From Rubrivivax sp. (GTDB lineage Bacteria; Pseudomonadota; Gammaproteobacteria; Burkholderiales; Burkholderiaceae_C), in the NCBI GenBank assembly GCA_020248945.1, contig JADCGQ010000012.1, positions 87,175 to 151,174 on the forward strand: 64,000 nt of DNA, in the 5' to 3' direction. Positions 28,452-34,406 of the stretch are shown piece after piece. The translations under genes were made by a program, and so were the position numbers. Position 1 is the stretch's first letter. Every line of letters starts with the position of its first letter. The notes under the pieces are model-generated. The model worked only from the letters and a program-made list of their open reading frames with translations. It ran no database searches and was not told where the DNA came from.

Positions 28452-30572
28452 ATGAAACTCCTTCCCTCGTTGTTTGCGCTCGGCCTCGCCGCCACCGCCC
28501 TGGCCGTGGCGGCGCAGGGCTCGGCTGTCGTCACCACGCCACAGGTGAAGGCCGGGCTGGTGGCCCATGCGCCCGAGGGCCTGGTGCCGGGCAAGCCCGC
28601 CTGGCTGGGCCTCAAGATCGAACACAAGCCGCACTGGCACACCTACTGGAAGAACCCCGGCGATTCCGGCCTGCCGACGACGCTGACCTGGACGCTGCCG
28701 CCCGGCGTGAGCGCCGGCGAGATCGACTGGCCGACGCCGAAGCGGCTGCCCATCGGCCCGCTGATGAACTTCGGCTACGAGGACACGCTGCTGCTGCCGG
28801 TACCGCTGTCGGTGCCGGCGGGCTTTGCCGGCGGCACGCTGGAGGTCAAGCTCAACGCCGAGTGGCTGGTCTGCAAGGATGTCTGCATCCCGGAGAGCGG
28901 CGAGTTCGTGCTGCAGCTGCCGGTGAACGCGGCCACCGCCGGACACGCGGCGCTGTTCGCGGCTGCCCGCGCCGCGCGCCCGCAGGACGTGGCGGGCGCC
29001 GATGCCAAGGCCGCCGTCGAAGGCCCTGATCTGGTGGTGCGCGTGACCGGCCTGCCGGTGGCGTGGCAGGGCCGCGAGCTGGGCTTCCTGCCCGAGACGG
29101 TGGGCGTCATCGTCAACGCCGCCAAGCCGCAGACCTCGTGGGACGCCGGCACCTGGACGGCGCGTGTGCCGCTCGATCCGCAACGCAGCGACTCGCCCAC
29201 CACGATGCCGCTGGTGCTGACGAGCGCCGGCGAAGTGGCCGGCCTGCGCGTGGCCGCCACCGTCACCACGCCTTGGCCGGCCGTGGCCCCGCCGGCGCCG
29301 CTGCCAGCACTGGGCAACGCCGAGATCACGCTCGCTCCCGCGGCCGCCGCGCCACCGGGCTTCGTGCTCGCCGTGGCCTTTGCGCTGGTGGGCGGCCTCA
29401 TCCTGAACCTGATGCCTTGCGTGTTCCCGGTGCTGTCGCTCAAGGTGCTGGGCTTTGCGCGCACCGGGGCTGATCGCCGAGCGCAGTTGGCCGGCGGCCT
29501 GGCCTACACCGGGGGCGTCGTGCTCAGCTTCGTGGCGCTGGCGGCGGTGCTGCTGGCCTTGCGTGCCGGCGGCGAACAGCTCGGCTGGGGCTTCCAGCTG
29601 CAGCACCCGGCGGTGGTGGCGGTGCTGGCGGCGCTGTTCACGCTGATCGGCCTCAACCTGGCCGGCGTCTTCGAGTTCGGCTCGGTGCTGCCCTCGTCGT
29701 GGGCCGGCGCGCAGGCGCGGCATCCGGTGGCGGACCACTTCCTCACCGGCGTGCTGGCGGTGGCCGTGGCCAGCCCGTGCACGGCGCCGTTCATGGGCGC
29801 CTCGCTGGGTGCGGCCATCACCATGCCGCCGGTGCAGGCGCTGGCGGTGTTCGCGGCCCTGGGCCTCGGCATGGCCTTGCCCTACCTGGCCGCCAGTGCC
29901 TGGCCGGCGCTGGCGCGCGCGCTGCCGCGGCCGGGCATCTGGATGCAGCACTTCAAGACGCTGATGGCCTTCCCGATGTTCGCCACCGTCGTGTGGCTGG
30001 TGTGGGTGCTGGGCGTGCAGGTGGGCATCGACGGCGCCGTGGCGCTGCTCGGCCTCTTGGTGGCGCTGGCCTTCGTGGCCTGGGCCGTGGGCTCGCCGAC
30101 GCTCGGCCCCAAGGCCCGCGGCGGCTTCGGCACCGCCGCCGTGCTGCTGCTGGTGGCGGCCCTCGTGTGGGCGGCGCCGGCCTTGCGCCAGGACGCCATC
30201 GCCGGCGGCAGCGCCGCGCAGGCCAGCGACGGCTGGGAGCCCTGGAGCACCGCTCGCGTGGCCCAGGCCCAGGCCGAGGGCCGCACGGTGTTCGTCGACT
30301 TCACCGCCGCCTGGTGCGTGACCTGCCAGTTCAACAAGCGCACCACGATGGCGGCCGATGACGTGAAGGCGGCGTTCGCCGACAAGCAGGTGCTGCGTCT
30401 GCGCGCCGACTGGACCAAGCGCGACCCCGCCATCACCGAGCAGCTCACGCGCTACGGCCGCAGCGGTGTGCCGGTGTACGCCGTCTATACCCCCGGCGCA
30501 GCAGGGCCACGGCTGCTGAGCGAAATTCTCTCGGTCGACGAGGTGCTCGGCGCGATTGGCGCCGGGCGCTGA
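28452..30572 (+). CDS. dsbD: DsbD-type protein-disulfide reductase
   Basis: N-terminal periplasmic domain (CKDVCIPESGEF), 8-TM core (LNLMPCVFPVLSLKVLGF; SPCTAPFMGASLG), C-terminal thioredoxin domain AAWCVTCQFNKRT. Confidence 0.93.
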   Translation: MKLLPSLFALGLAATALAVAAQGSAVVTTPQVKAGLVAHAPEGLVPGKPAWLGLKIEHKPHWHTYWKNPGDSGLPTTLTWTLPPGVSAGEIDWPTPKRLPIGPLMNFGYEDTLLLPVPLSVPAGFAGGTLEVKLNAEWLVCKDVCIPESGEFVLQLPVNAATAGHAALFAAARAARPQDVAGADAKAAVEGPDLVVRVTGLPVAWQGRELGFLPETVGVIVNAAKPQTSWDAGTWTARVPLDPQRSDSPTTMPLVLTSAGEVAGLRVAATVTTPWPAVAPPAPLPALGNAEITLAPAAAAPPGFVLAVAFALVGGLILNLMPCVFPVLSLKVLGFARTGADRRAQLAGGLAYTGGVVLSFVALAAVLLALRAGGEQLGWGFQLQHPAVVAVLAALFTLIGLNLAGVFEFGSVLPSSWAGAQARHPVADHFLTGVLAVAVASPCTAPFMGASLGAAITMPPVQALAVFAALGLGMALPYLAASAWPALARALPRPGIWMQHFKTLMAFPMFATVVWLVWVLGVQVGIDGAVALLGLLVALAFVAWAVGSPTLGPKARGGFGTAAVLLLVAALVWAAPALRQDAIAGGSAAQASDGWEPWSTARVAQAQAEGRTVFVDFTAAWCVTCQFNKRTTMAADDVKAAFADKQVLRLRADWTKRDPAITEQLTRYGRSGVPVYAVYTPGAAGPRLLSEILSVDEVLGAIGAGR

Positions 30573-30604
30573 GCGCGACGCCCCGCGTTCAACAGGAGTT
30601 CGCC

Positions 30605-31219
30605 ATGCAGATGCTCGCCCGCACCCTGGTCGCCACCACGCTGGCGCTGGCCGCCACCGCGGCGCTGGCCAACGCCACCGTCGGCCAGCCGGCGCCGGCC
30701 TTCACGGCGACCGACGCCGCCGGCAAGTCCGTCTCGCTGGCCGACTTCAAGGGCAAGCACGTCGTGCTCGAGTGGGTGAACCCCGGCTGCCCGTACGTCG
30801 TCAAGCATTACAGCAGCGGCAACATGCAGGGCACGCAGCGCGAGGCCACGGCCAAGGGCGTGGTCTGGCTCAGCGTCAACAGCACCGCCACCGACTCGCG
30901 CGACTACCGCGCTCCCGCCGACATGGCCGGCTGGATGCAGCAACAGAAGGCCGCCGCCACCGCCACGCTGATGGACGCCGATGGCAAGCTCGGCCGCGCG
31001 TTTGGTGCCCGCACCACGCCGCACATGTATGTCATCGATCCCGCCGGCAAGCTCGTGTATGCCGGCGCCATCGACAACAAGCCCAGCAGCAACCCGGCCG
31101 ACACCGCCACGGCCACCAACCACGTCAAGGTGGCCCTGGCCGAGCTGCTGGCCGGCAAGCCGGTGAGCACGCCCGTCACGCGGCCGTACGGCTGCTCGGT
31201 GAAGTACTCGTCGATGTAG
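30605..31219 (+). CDS. Periplasmic thioredoxin/peroxiredoxin-like protein
   Basis: Signal peptide, GQPAPAFTATDAAGKSVSLADFKGKHVVLEWVNPGCPYVVKHY (single-Cys GCPYV site, not CXXC). Confidence 0.87.
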   Translation: MQMLARTLVATTLALAATAALANATVGQPAPAFTATDAAGKSVSLADFKGKHVVLEWVNPGCPYVVKHYSSGNMQGTQREATAKGVVWLSVNSTATDSRDYRAPADMAGWMQQQKAAATATLMDADGKLGRAFGARTTPHMYVIDPAGKLVYAGAIDNKPSSNPADTATATNHVKVALAELLAGKPVSTPVTRPYGCSVKYSSM

Positions 31220-31291
31220 ACCCGGGCGTCTTCAGGTCGGCTTCATCGGGCCGGCCGAGCATCCCGTTCGCCGCATCACGCGGCAGACGGG

Positions 31292-31543
31292 ATGGGCATG
31301 AAGACCTTCGATGGATGGAAGCTGCGGCGCCCTGTCGCGGCACTGGTGCTGGGTGCGATGGCGCTGCTCGGCGGCTGCGCGTCGATGGGCGTGCAGCCCT
31401 GGGAGCGCGACCTGCTCGCGCAACCCGCGATGGCGCCCGAGGGCGTGGCTCTGCACGGCGACCTCGACGACCACATCTACTTCAGCAAGGAAGCCGCCAC
31501 CGGCGGCCGCGGCTTCGGCGGTGGAGGCTGCGGATGCAACTGA
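31292..31543 (+). CDS. DUF4266-type small lipoprotein
   Basis: Lipobox ALLGGC, C-terminal GGRGFGGGGCGCN, directly upstream of a DUF3570-type gene. Confidence 0.8.
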   Translation: MGMKTFDGWKLRRPVAALVLGAMALLGGCASMGVQPWERDLLAQPAMAPEGVALHGDLDDHIYFSKEAATGGRGFGGGGCGCN

Positions 31544-32817
31544 GCCCCACCGATTGGCGAGCCGCCCTCGCCGGCGCCGCCGCCACGCTGCTGGCACCCG
31601 GGGCGCACGCCGCCGACGCCGCCACGCCCTGGCTCGTCGACACCGCCGTGCTGCTGTACAGCGAAGGCGGCGGCCGCGTGCGCGCCGTCGAGCCCGTGGT
31701 GGGCCTGAAGCGCACCGACGCCGCCGGGGTGACGACGGGCCTGAAGGTCACGCTCGACAGCCTCACCGGCGCCTCGCCCAACGGCGCCGTGGCTCAGCCC
31801 GGCGTGCAGACCTTCACCTCGCCCTCGGGCAAGGGCAGCTGGACGGCCGCGCCTGGCGTGCGCCCGCTCGACCCGAGCTTCAAGGACACCCGCGTCGCCC
31901 TGGCCGCCAACCAGGAACGCCCCTGGGGCGCCGACCAGCGCCTGAGCTACGGCGCGAACGTCTCGCGCGAGTACGACTTCACCTCGCTGGGCGCCAACGT
32001 CTCGCTGGCGCGCGACTTCGACCGCAAGAACACCACGCTGAGCATCGGCCTGGCGCTGGAGGCCGACCAGCTGCGCCCCGTGGGCGGCCAGCCCGCGGGC
32101 CTGAAGCCGATGTTCGGCGCCGGCTCGTCCAAGGGCGGCAACGGCTCGCGCCAGGTGGCCGACCTGCTGCTGGGCTGGACGCAGGTGGTCAACCGCCAGT
32201 GGCTGATGCAGCTGAACCTGGGCCTGGGCAGCGGCAGCGGCGAACATACCGATCCGTACAAGCTGCTGAGCGTGCTCGACGGCAGCAGCGGCCTCGTCAC
32301 CGGCTCGCGCTACGTGGCCGAGTTGCGTCCGGACAGCCGCACGCGCACGAGCCTGTTCTGGGGCCACAAGGTCAGCCTGGGACCGGGCGTGCTCGACGCC
32401 TCGTACCGCTGGTACGGCGACGACTGGGGCGTGCGCGCCCACACGGTCGACCTGCGCTGGCGCCACCCGCTGCCCGGCGGCGGCTTCGTGCAGCCGCGCT
32501 GGCGCCACCACATCCAGCAGGCCGCCGACTTCTACCGCCCCTGGCTCATCGAAGGCCGCGACTGGAACAGCACGACGCAGACCAGCCCGCTGTCGGCGGC
32601 CTCGGCCGACGAGCGCCTGGGCGCCTTCTCGGCCGACACGGTGGGCGTCACGCTCGGCTGGCCGCTGGCCCGCGACAGCCTGCTCACGCTGCGCGCCGAA
32701 ACCTATCGCCAGCGGCAGGACGCGCCGAGCGGCGCGCCCGGCGTGCTGGCCACGCTGGCACCGGCGCTCGACCTGAAGGCGACGATGCTGACGGTGGGAT
32801 GGTCGTTCCGCTGGTGA
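31534..32817 (+). CDS. DUF3570-type putative outer-membrane beta-barrel protein
   Basis: Signal peptide; LKVTLDSLTGASPNGA; alternating strand-like C-terminal half ending MLTVGWSFRW; start overlaps DUF4266 end. Confidence 0.83.
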   Translation: MQLSPTDWRAALAGAAATLLAPGAHAADAATPWLVDTAVLLYSEGGGRVRAVEPVVGLKRTDAAGVTTGLKVTLDSLTGASPNGAVAQPGVQTFTSPSGKGSWTAAPGVRPLDPSFKDTRVALAANQERPWGADQRLSYGANVSREYDFTSLGANVSLARDFDRKNTTLSIGLALEADQLRPVGGQPAGLKPMFGAGSSKGGNGSRQVADLLLGWTQVVNRQWLMQLNLGLGSGSGEHTDPYKLLSVLDGSSGLVTGSRYVAELRPDSRTRTSLFWGHKVSLGPGVLDASYRWYGDDWGVRAHTVDLRWRHPLPGGGFVQPRWRHHIQQAADFYRPWLIEGRDWNSTTQTSPLSAASADERLGAFSADTVGVTLGWPLARDSLLTLRAETYRQRQDAPSGAPGVLATLAPALDLKATMLTVGWSFRW

Positions 32818-33782
32818 GCCCCACCGAGGCCGACGCCGTGCCGTGGCTGCAGCGCGCAGCCGGCGGCTGGCGCGGTGGCTTCGATGCCATGGTCAGCCCT
32901 TGCGAGGTGCTGGTCGATGGCGTCGACGAGGCCACGGCGCGCCGTCTCGTGGCGCTGGCGCAGGACGAGGCGCTGCGCATCGAACGGCGCTTCAGTCGAT
33001 ACCGCGACGACAGCGTCGTCGCCCGGCTGCAGGCCGCCCGCGGCGGCTGGCAGTGGGTGGACGACGAGACGGCGCAGTTGCTCGACTTTGCCGCCCAATG
33101 CCACGCGCTCAGCAGCGGCCTGTTCGACATCACCAGTGGCGTGCTGCGCTCGGCCTGGCGCTTCGACGGCAGCGACCGCGTGCCCACGCCTGCCGCGGTG
33201 GCGGCGCTGTTGCCACGCGTGGGCTGGCAGCAGCTGCGCTGGCAGCGCCCGCGCCTGTGGCTGCCCGAGGGCATGGAGCTCGACTTCGGCGGCATCGGCA
33301 AGGAGTACGCCGTCGACCGCACGCTCGCGCGCCTGGGTGCCGACACGCCCGCGCCGATGCTCGTGAACTTCGGCGGTGACCTCGCCTGCAGCGGCCCGCG
33401 CGCCGACGGCAGCCCGTGGCAGGTGGGCATCGAGCAACCCGGCACCGCCGCTGCGGCCGCGGTGCTGAACCTGCGCACCGGTGCGCTGGCCACCAGCGGC
33501 GATGCGCGCCGCTTCGTGCTGCACCAGGGCCGCCGCCTGGGCCACGTGCTCGACCCGCGCACCGGCTGGCCCGTCGAAGGCGCGCCGCGCTCGGTGACAG
33601 TGTCCGCGCCGAGCTGCGTCGAGGCCGGCATGGTGGCGACGATGGCGCTGCTGCAGGGCGCGGGCGCTGCCGCCTGGCTGCGGCAGACCGGCGTGCCGCA
33701 CGCCCTGATCGACGAGCAGGGGCAGGTGCAAGCCCACTTCGACTACCCGCAACGGGAGGACGCTTCATGGCCCCAAGGATGA
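32814..33782 (+). CDS. apbE: FAD:protein FMN transferase
   Basis: FSRYRDDSVVARLQ, LWLPEGMELDFGGIGKEYAVDRT, VNFGGDLACSG, ATSGDARRFVLHQGRRLGHVLDPRTGWPV; GTG start overlaps DUF3570 stop. Confidence 0.92.
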   Translation: MSPTEADAVPWLQRAAGGWRGGFDAMVSPCEVLVDGVDEATARRLVALAQDEALRIERRFSRYRDDSVVARLQAARGGWQWVDDETAQLLDFAAQCHALSSGLFDITSGVLRSAWRFDGSDRVPTPAAVAALLPRVGWQQLRWQRPRLWLPEGMELDFGGIGKEYAVDRTLARLGADTPAPMLVNFGGDLACSGPRADGSPWQVGIEQPGTAAAAAVLNLRTGALATSGDARRFVLHQGRRLGHVLDPRTGWPVEGAPRSVTVSAPSCVEAGMVATMALLQGAGAAAWLRQTGVPHALIDEQGQVQAHFDYPQREDASWPQG

Positions 33783-34279
33783 CCCGCCGCAGCTGGCTGG
33801 CCGCACTGCCCTGCGGGGCCGCCCTCGGCCTGCTGCCCACGCGCAGCCAGGCCCTCGCAGCGGGCGACGCCGCGCCGGTGCTCGAGCTCGAGGGCGTGGC
33901 CGGGCCGGTGAGCCTGGCGGCGCTGCAGGGCCGTGTCGTGCTGCTGGACTTCTGGGCCTCGTGGTGCCCGCCGTGCCGGCAGTCGTTTCCGTGGATGGAC
34001 CAGATGCTGGCGCGGCACGGCGGCGCGGGCTTGTCGGTGGTGGCGGTGAACCTGGATCAGCAGCGTGGCGCGGCCGAGCTGTTCATGCGCGCCGTGCCGT
34101 CGCGGGCCACGATCGCGTTCGATCCGGCGGGCGACACGCCGCGGCGCTTTGGTGCGAAGGCGATGCCGACCAGCTTCATCATCGGCCGCGACGGGCGGGT
34201 GCGGCTGCAGCACGATGGGTTTCGGGAGGCGGATCAGGGGCCGCTGGAAATGGCGCTAAGGCAGGCACTGGGTGCTTGA
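33767..34279 (+). CDS. TlpA-family disulfide reductase
   Basis: VVLLDFWASWCPPCRQSFPWMDQ, AMPTSFIIGRDGRV; Tat-like RRSWLAAL N terminus. Confidence 0.92.
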   Translation: MAPRMTRRSWLAALPCGAALGLLPTRSQALAAGDAAPVLELEGVAGPVSLAALQGRVVLLDFWASWCPPCRQSFPWMDQMLARHGGAGLSVVAVNLDQQRGAAELFMRAVPSRATIAFDPAGDTPRRFGAKAMPTSFIIGRDGRVRLQHDGFREADQGPLEMALRQALGA

Positions 34280-34295
34280 GCGGCAGGGGGCGGGA

Positions 34296-34406
34296 CTTCG
34301 ACAGGCTCAGTCCGAACGGGGTCGGGTGCGCTCGGGACTTCGACAAGCTCAGTCCGAACGGAGGGATCGGGAGGTCCCCAATCCGTTCGCGCTGAGCCTG
34401 TCGAAG
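34296..34406. repeat. Three copies of CTTCGACARGCTCAGYCCGAACGG-type repeat (two direct, one inverted)
   Basis: 34296-34319, 34338-34361 (forward), 34383-34406 (reverse, one mismatch in core). Confidence 0.9.

Follow-up and report, generated by a model that had tools for sequence, protein, structure and literature searches.

A DUF4266-DUF3570-ApbE-TlpA module in Rubrivivax sp. and its possible role in thiol-fed electron delivery at the cell surface

What might a thiol-reducing membrane protein, a flavin transferase and a barrel-like protein do together in one bacterial envelope? The question is raised by six genes at positions 28452-34279 of a 64,000-nucleotide stretch of Rubrivivax sp. DNA (contig JADCGQ010000012.1; the whole stretch is called the window below). 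We propose, with a little less than even confidence, that four of them, DUF4266-DUF3570-ApbE-TlpA, would deliver thiol-derived electrons at the cell surface by means of flavin mononucleotide (FMN). An earlier reading made from the letters of the DNA (the sequence-only reading) had described all six as one tightly packed redox cassette. The co-directional order and the DUF4266-DUF3570, DUF3570-ApbE and ApbE-TlpA overlaps were borne out by the open reading frames and by Pfam, as were the domain names, except that gene 2, called thioredoxin (Trx)-like, encodes an AhpC/TSA-type protein without CXXC. The features on which the argument turns are the following.

28452..30572, + strand: dsbD, thiol:disulfide interchange protein (Pfam DsbD_N PF11412, the alpha domain; DsbD_TM PF02683; C-terminal Thioredoxin_7 PF13899)
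30605..31219, + strand: AhpC/TSA-type (peroxiredoxin-like) exported protein (AhpC-TSA PF00578, 1.6e-16; Redoxin PF08534)
31230..31245, + strand: direct repeat CTTCAG-GTCG-GCTTCA, predicted site of a QseB/PmrA-type response regulator, kept in relatives L042, L043 and L044
31260..31294, + strand: hairpin over the first possible DUF4266 start codon (fold z-score; stem kept in L042)
31292..31543, + strand: DUF4266 lipoprotein with C-terminal CGCN (PF14086, 1.1e-21)
31534..32817, + strand: DUF3570, exported 16-strand outer-membrane beta barrel and predicted ApbE substrate (PF12094, 1.3e-112; AlphaFold)
31756..31776, + strand: flavinylation motif D75-S-L-T-G-A-S81, predicted FMN residue Ser81 (homologue alignment)
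32799..33782, + strand: ApbE flavin transferase without signal peptide, with a DUF3570-type signature (PF02424, 8.8e-67)
33767..34279, + strand: TlpA/ResA-like exported CXXC protein (WCPPC; AhpC-TSA/Redoxin/Thioredoxin_8; best NCBIfam ResA/DsbE/TlpA)

The DUF4266/DUF3570 overlap measures 10 bp, the DUF3570 ATG falling within the codons of the CGCN tail. The DUF3570/ApbE overlap is 19 bp if ApbE starts at 32799, and ApbE and TlpA overlap by 16 bp.

A published kind of DsbD cluster

The cassette belongs to the DsbD / Trx-like / DUF4266 / DUF3570 / ApbE cluster kind published by Meheust et al. (2021, eLife; PMC8238504), who reported 285 DsbD clusters; a typical one also contains ApbE, DUF3570, DUF4266 and a Trx-like protein. 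In that work two [ST]GA[ST] motifs of the Chlorobium luteolum DUF3570 received flavin from the cognate ApbE, and what the DUF3570 system does and how it is arranged were left open. The window shares with these clusters a DsbD (PF02683) within five genes, a DUF3570 with [ST]GA[ST], a DUF4266 with C-terminal CXC, an ApbE and an extracytosolic Trx-fold protein. However, a separate PF13899 Trx-like protein is typical of the published clusters (183 of 285), whereas PF13899 occurs here only as the C-terminal domain of DsbD, the free Trx-fold proteins being of AhpC type and TlpA/ResA type. The window also differs in having one flavin motif instead of two, and in that its DsbD and AhpC-type genes make up a conserved pair of their own.

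The sequence-only reading knew of no defined function for DUF3570 or DUF4266; the system itself had been described in the 2021 paper. Its outer-membrane flavoprotein with thiol machinery agrees with the barrel, with the ApbE target motif and with a family that is a proven ApbE substrate (PMC8238504), but the idea is not new. That the thiol machinery keeps DUF3570 reduced is plausible. Open-licence full texts yielded no literature on DUF3570 or DUF4266 beyond PMC8238504, although other work may exist, and nothing further on DUF3570 was found in two later works on flavinylation (PMC11334425 and PMC12052999). We did not find in the literature searched an outward flavin site, a leaderless ApbE with a diagnostic Glu, a TlpA-DUF4266 fusion or a repeat shared with the eptA promoter.

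Two gene units

Among 85,462 species genomes scanned, at least 575 DUF3570 relatives were confirmed, the best 80 of which were kept. Together with the 14 loci of the order (DUF3570 is present in 14 of its 150 genomes), these make up the approximately 94 loci considered here, which span Proteobacteria, Chlorobi, Holophagaceae, Verrucomicrobia-type groups, Krumholzibacteria, Eisenbacteria and others. DUF4266, TlpA and ApbE genes adjoin DUF3570 in most of these loci and in several phyla, so that DUF4266-DUF3570-ApbE-TlpA (31292-34279) can be regarded as the core, in varied order. The sequence-only reading had held that a DUF3570-apbE pairing confined to this clade would count against it; since the module co-occurs widely, that objection falls away. 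DsbD lies beside the module in 19 loci.

The first two genes of the window have a distribution of their own. The AhpC-type protein carries one active-site Cys (NPGCPYVV, at the CXXC position) and a C-terminal Cys (GCSVKY), and is therefore better regarded as peroxiredoxin-like than as the Trx-like thiol carrier supposed in the sequence-only reading. Its orthologues, with 46-58% identity, are found beside DsbD: the two genes are adjacent in 8 of the 9 further genomes where a true orthologue is present, and several of these genomes lack any DUF3570. The nearest relative (L042, DUF3570 87% identical) has the same six-gene order, while L043 and L044 (DUF3570 65% and 59% identical) lack DsbD-AhpC but have the four genes of the module, preceded by the same repeat. 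The window thus combines a common DsbD-AhpC pair with a scattered four-gene module. The pair would be a separate ancestral neighbour, able to supply thiol electrons and perhaps serving the module.

Could the six genes nevertheless be one dedicated operon, with the AhpC-type protein as thiol carrier for DUF3570? The shared orientation, the identical order in L042 and the lack of any terminator found between the genes are in its favor; however, the occurrence of each part without the other, together with the regulatory repeat that separates them, makes it unlikely in our estimate. The supposed tight packing also breaks down at this point, where a gap of 72 bp between the AhpC-type and DUF4266 genes contains the conserved direct repeat and a strong hairpin. 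No consensus sigma-70 promoter or terminator was found at the locus.

A selenocysteine in the AhpC-type protein was considered and rejected. In the 8 loci checked out of 10, one of them among the three flagged with TGA, both Cys are encoded by ordinary codons and a stop follows GC[ST][VI]KY.

The same genome encodes another, divergent DUF3570 on contig C35 (L028:9516-11482), which lacks the flavin motif and is found with DUF4266 and TlpA beside ExbB/ExbD/TPR genes; a further leaderless ApbE lies about 6 kilobases away. In some Burkholderiales and Methylococcaceae (L029, L030, L031, L089, L103, L105, L106, L109 and L117) the DUF3570 frame runs into a second barrel-like domain, giving 700-1000 residues.

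The DUF3570 barrel and its flavin site

An AlphaFold model of the window DUF3570, built with 75 homologues, is a 16-strand barrel (pLDDT 90.6, pTM 0.87), and the best PDB folds for it are outer-membrane porins and transporters, in agreement with the barrel-like protein of the sequence-only reading. A two-motif Chlorobium homologue gave the same 16-strand barrel (pLDDT 86.4, pTM 0.85), with both motifs in one long loop on the flavin side. The protein ends in W427, and a terminal F, W or Y, most often F or W, is found in 66 of the 75 homologues; this aromatic is a beta signal. With an even strand number, a signal peptide (judged by inspection) and the C-terminal aromatic, DUF3570 has the marks of an outer-membrane barrel.

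The pattern D..[ST]G[AS][ST] is present in all 75 aligned homologues, the window motif TGAS being residues 78-81. A second [ST]GA[ST] motif was not found in the window DUF3570; one occurs at most 45 residues away in 26 of the 75 homologues, indicating that the two-motif state is not universal. In the model, Ser81 is located where strand 3 enters a loop of 37 residues. The loops on this flavin side measure 4, 37, 2, 23, 31, 4, 36 and 18 residues, against 2-5 on the opposite side. In outer-membrane barrels both termini are periplasmic and the long loops lie outside, which would place the Ser81 site on the extracellular side. Moreover, 35 of 40 conserved positions are on the flavin side (p 0.0007), as are 19 of 24 when strand residues alone are counted (p 0.0014), which suggests that FMN has its pocket at the outer mouth, where the flavin might face either outward or into the lumen of the barrel. 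Mature DUF3570 contains no Cys in the window protein or in 67 of the 75 homologues, so that thiols must reach the FMN from partner proteins.

A leaderless ApbE subfamily

The window ApbE has no N-terminal signal peptide with lipobox. This is also the case across the family: 72 of 75 DUF3570-linked ApbEs lack a hydrophobic N-terminal stretch, and in 22 of the 75 the core is preceded by fewer than 18 residues. Among 27 control ApbEs of the same order, 19 have such a stretch, 17 a lipobox-like motif and 8 no detectable export signal, export being judged by a hydropathy proxy. The difference (72/75 versus 8/27, Fisher 1e-11) is overstated by its p value because homologous rows are not independent; that the pattern holds across phyla carries more weight. 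Cryptic start codons adding a leader were considered and rejected, in view of the non-hydrophobic in-frame upstream sequence and of the short N-termini just mentioned.

The sequences carry a signature as well. Glu at 170 and Gly at 280 (E. coli numbering) are found in 64 of 64 aligned DUF3570-type ApbEs, and E170 in none of 26 controls; on these alignments E170 is diagnostic for the DUF3570 type. G280, which entails loss of a metal ligand (D280 in E. coli ApbE; PMC4767422), was rejected as a unique mark, since 12 of the 26 controls also have Gly, with an Asp four residues on. Compared with the canonical lipoprotein ApbE of E. coli, Salmonella and V. cholerae, the window enzyme keeps the fold and the equivalents of His257 and Thr284, but differs by the missing signal peptide, by E170 in place of Gly and by Gly in place of the D280 metal ligand.

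Judging from these N-termini, ApbE probably attaches FMN in the cytosol before export. Cytosolic ApbEs have been described for soluble fumarate reductase (PMC12052999); none for an exported barrel was described in the literature searched. If flavin is indeed added in the cytosol to a barrel bound for export, the question arises of which modified chains the export machinery accepts.

In 17 Chlorobi and Burkholderiales loci, DUF3570 adjoins a gene for a leaderless, repeat-rich, immunoglobulin (Ig)-like protein of surface type (for example L076:5173-6675, L079:2741-3583 and L093:11217-12947). At 12 of these 17 loci a [ST]GA[ST] motif lies in its shared N-terminal domain, so the protein may be a further substrate of ApbE.

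DUF4266 and TlpA

DUF4266 is the Cys-tailed lipoprotein that the sequence-only reading recognized, with lipobox LLGGC, about 55 mature residues and the C-terminal end GGGGCGCN. The tail GCGC[NYT] is found in 87 of 87 homologues. The window TlpA retains its CXXC and has a twin arginine in its N-terminus MAPRMTRRSWLAAL. The two genes are paired in most loci, and in one member of the Holophagaceae they are fused (L086:9115-9888), with intact CXXC and a GGGCGCN tail, as confirmed against Pfam; the same apparent pattern is seen in two other Holophagaceae loci (L108 and L118). The fusion argues for thiol exchange.

Regulatory repeat and hairpin

The repeat CTTCA-N6-CTTCA at 31230, before DUF4266, lies at equal distance in L042, L043 and L044, and the last two keep it despite different upstream genes. 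An exact search with CTTCAGNNNNGCTTCA returned three copies in the genome (0 for the reversed control), one at the module and two in a divergent promoter between the gene for an EptA-type transferase and a response-regulator/kinase/DgkA operon. Repeats of this kind also stand in the corresponding promoter of the L042, L043 and L044 genomes, which makes four genomes in all. In three other loci (L047, L051 and L057) the gene for a QseB/PmrA-type regulator and the cassette point away from each other, and CTTAA-N6-CTTAA lies within or next to the promoter region that they share. The PmrA box consists of tandem CTTAA-type half sites about 11 bp apart (PMC3973317), and the window repeat is a diverged form of the QseB/PmrA tandem half sites.

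CTT[AC]A-N6-CTT[AC]A occurs upstream in 9 of 30 close-subfamily loci versus 0.8% of background windows, a count that is partly circular because the window site guided the choice of half-site, and some of these promoters its later widening; the genome-wide exact search is the cleaner test. We predict from these sites that the module is switched on with eptA by a QseBC/PmrAB-like two-component system, whose identity we infer: the response regulator on contig C54 scores best as QseB and then as PmrA, below both equivalog cut-offs. If so, the repeat points to QseBC/PmrAB-type stimuli as the condition for a phenotype search. No clear regulon emerges from the other sites of the repeat in the L043 and L044 genomes, whose neighbors include cytochrome c genes and a DUF1501-like gene.

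The region 31215-31310 folds with a z-score of -4.2, none of 200 shuffles being as stable. The stem is kept in L042 with a changed loop, and a second DUF4266 ATG is present at 31298; the hairpin may control translation of the module.

On contig C54 of the same genome (L145:4342-6377), genes for a DUF1924 cytochrome, a dihaem cytochrome c and a cytochrome b561 adjoin the QseB/PmrA-like regulator and EptA genes.

A possible electron route and its alternatives

In the proposed scheme, the leaderless ApbE would attach FMN to DUF3570 in the cytosol, and the exported barrel would carry one covalent FMN on Ser81 at its outward mouth. Electrons would pass from cytosolic thioredoxin to DsbD and on to the CXXC of TlpA; next in line would be the dithiol in the C-terminal CGC of the DUF4266 lipoprotein at the periplasmic face, then FMN and finally an acceptor on the cell surface or beyond it, the module being induced together with eptA by the QseBC/PmrAB-like system. 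We infer the direction and the carrier order; the acceptor might, at a guess, be a metal such as Fe(III). A bolder and on balance doubtful version makes the barrel a haem-free outer-membrane conduit, in which a DsbD/TlpA/DUF4266 CXC relay would reduce FMN at the outer mouth, the flavin having been installed in the cytosol by the distinct leaderless ApbE subfamily and exported with the protein, while the same ApbE may also modify the leaderless surface proteins with the same motif in Chlorobi and Burkholderiales. An outward cysteine-fed flavin of this kind would, if true, be a haem-free electron route across the outer membrane in several phyla. It would resemble porin-cytochrome conduits (MtrCAB, PCC), in which an outer-membrane barrel and a periplasmic partner move electrons outward, but with FMN and thiols as the would-be carriers and no sequence relation claimed; no haem-protein family, and hence no multihaem cytochrome, was found by Pfam among the six window proteins.

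Several points weigh against the proposed scheme. Adjacent DsbD is absent from most DUF3570 loci, the periplasmic side of DUF3570, where DUF4266 should dock, showed no conserved patch, and the passage of an unfolded, FMN-bearing barrel through the Sec channel is unexplained. The predicted topology of DUF3570 follows from the barrel rules. The electron direction could moreover be reversed, toward thiol oxidation. DUF3570-FMN would then oxidize the thiols of DUF4266 and TlpA and pass electrons to oxygen or another oxidant, as an outer-membrane thiol oxidase or disulfide-forming device. The many cassettes with no DsbD nearby and the reversible chemistry of CXC and CXXC fit such a flow, but TlpA/ResA/DsbE families are usually reductants and DsbD directly follows ApbE in independent lineages (Duganella, Massilia and Chlorobi; L088, L115, L120 and L121), so we judge it decidedly unlikely.

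The flavin might otherwise act as a sensor or gate: the barrel would open or shut with the flavin's redox state and so control the entry of a small molecule or metal, with no outward electron transfer. We think this improbable: the porin-like fold, the modelled flavin loop at the barrel mouth and the VIT1 iron transporters in 25 published clusters (PMC8238504) would suit a gate, but electron transfer accounts just as well for ApbE and the conserved Cys relay, and no transporter lies in or adjoining the window module. It also seems quite improbable that the DUF4266 CXC binds copper, iron or mercury instead of cycling as a dithiol, in a system handling that metal. The fusion of DUF4266 to TlpA favors thiol exchange, even though the GCGC tail is invariant, co-regulation with an envelope-stress regulon is predicted and a cupredoxin-like gene lies upstream in some Chlorobi (L075).

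Neighboring pair and flanking sequences

Envelope peroxiredoxin systems fed by DsbD or ScsB are known, for example ScsB-PprX of Caulobacter. The neighboring pair of the window, and only the pair, resembles it in having DsbD beside a peroxiredoxin-like exported protein, a likeness that we regard as a lead; it differs in that the window DsbD is of the classical three-domain type.

The six-gene span sits between a minus-strand atp operon and, further downstream, other minus-strand genes. One further feature marks the 3' end of the module:

34291..34406, no strand assigned: cluster of REP-like repeats, with two direct copies of 29 nucleotides and one inverted copy

The REP-like sequence TTCGACAGGCTCAGTCCGAACGG has six copies in the window (34297-34405, 58150, 58339 and 63704), three of which directly follow the TlpA stop.

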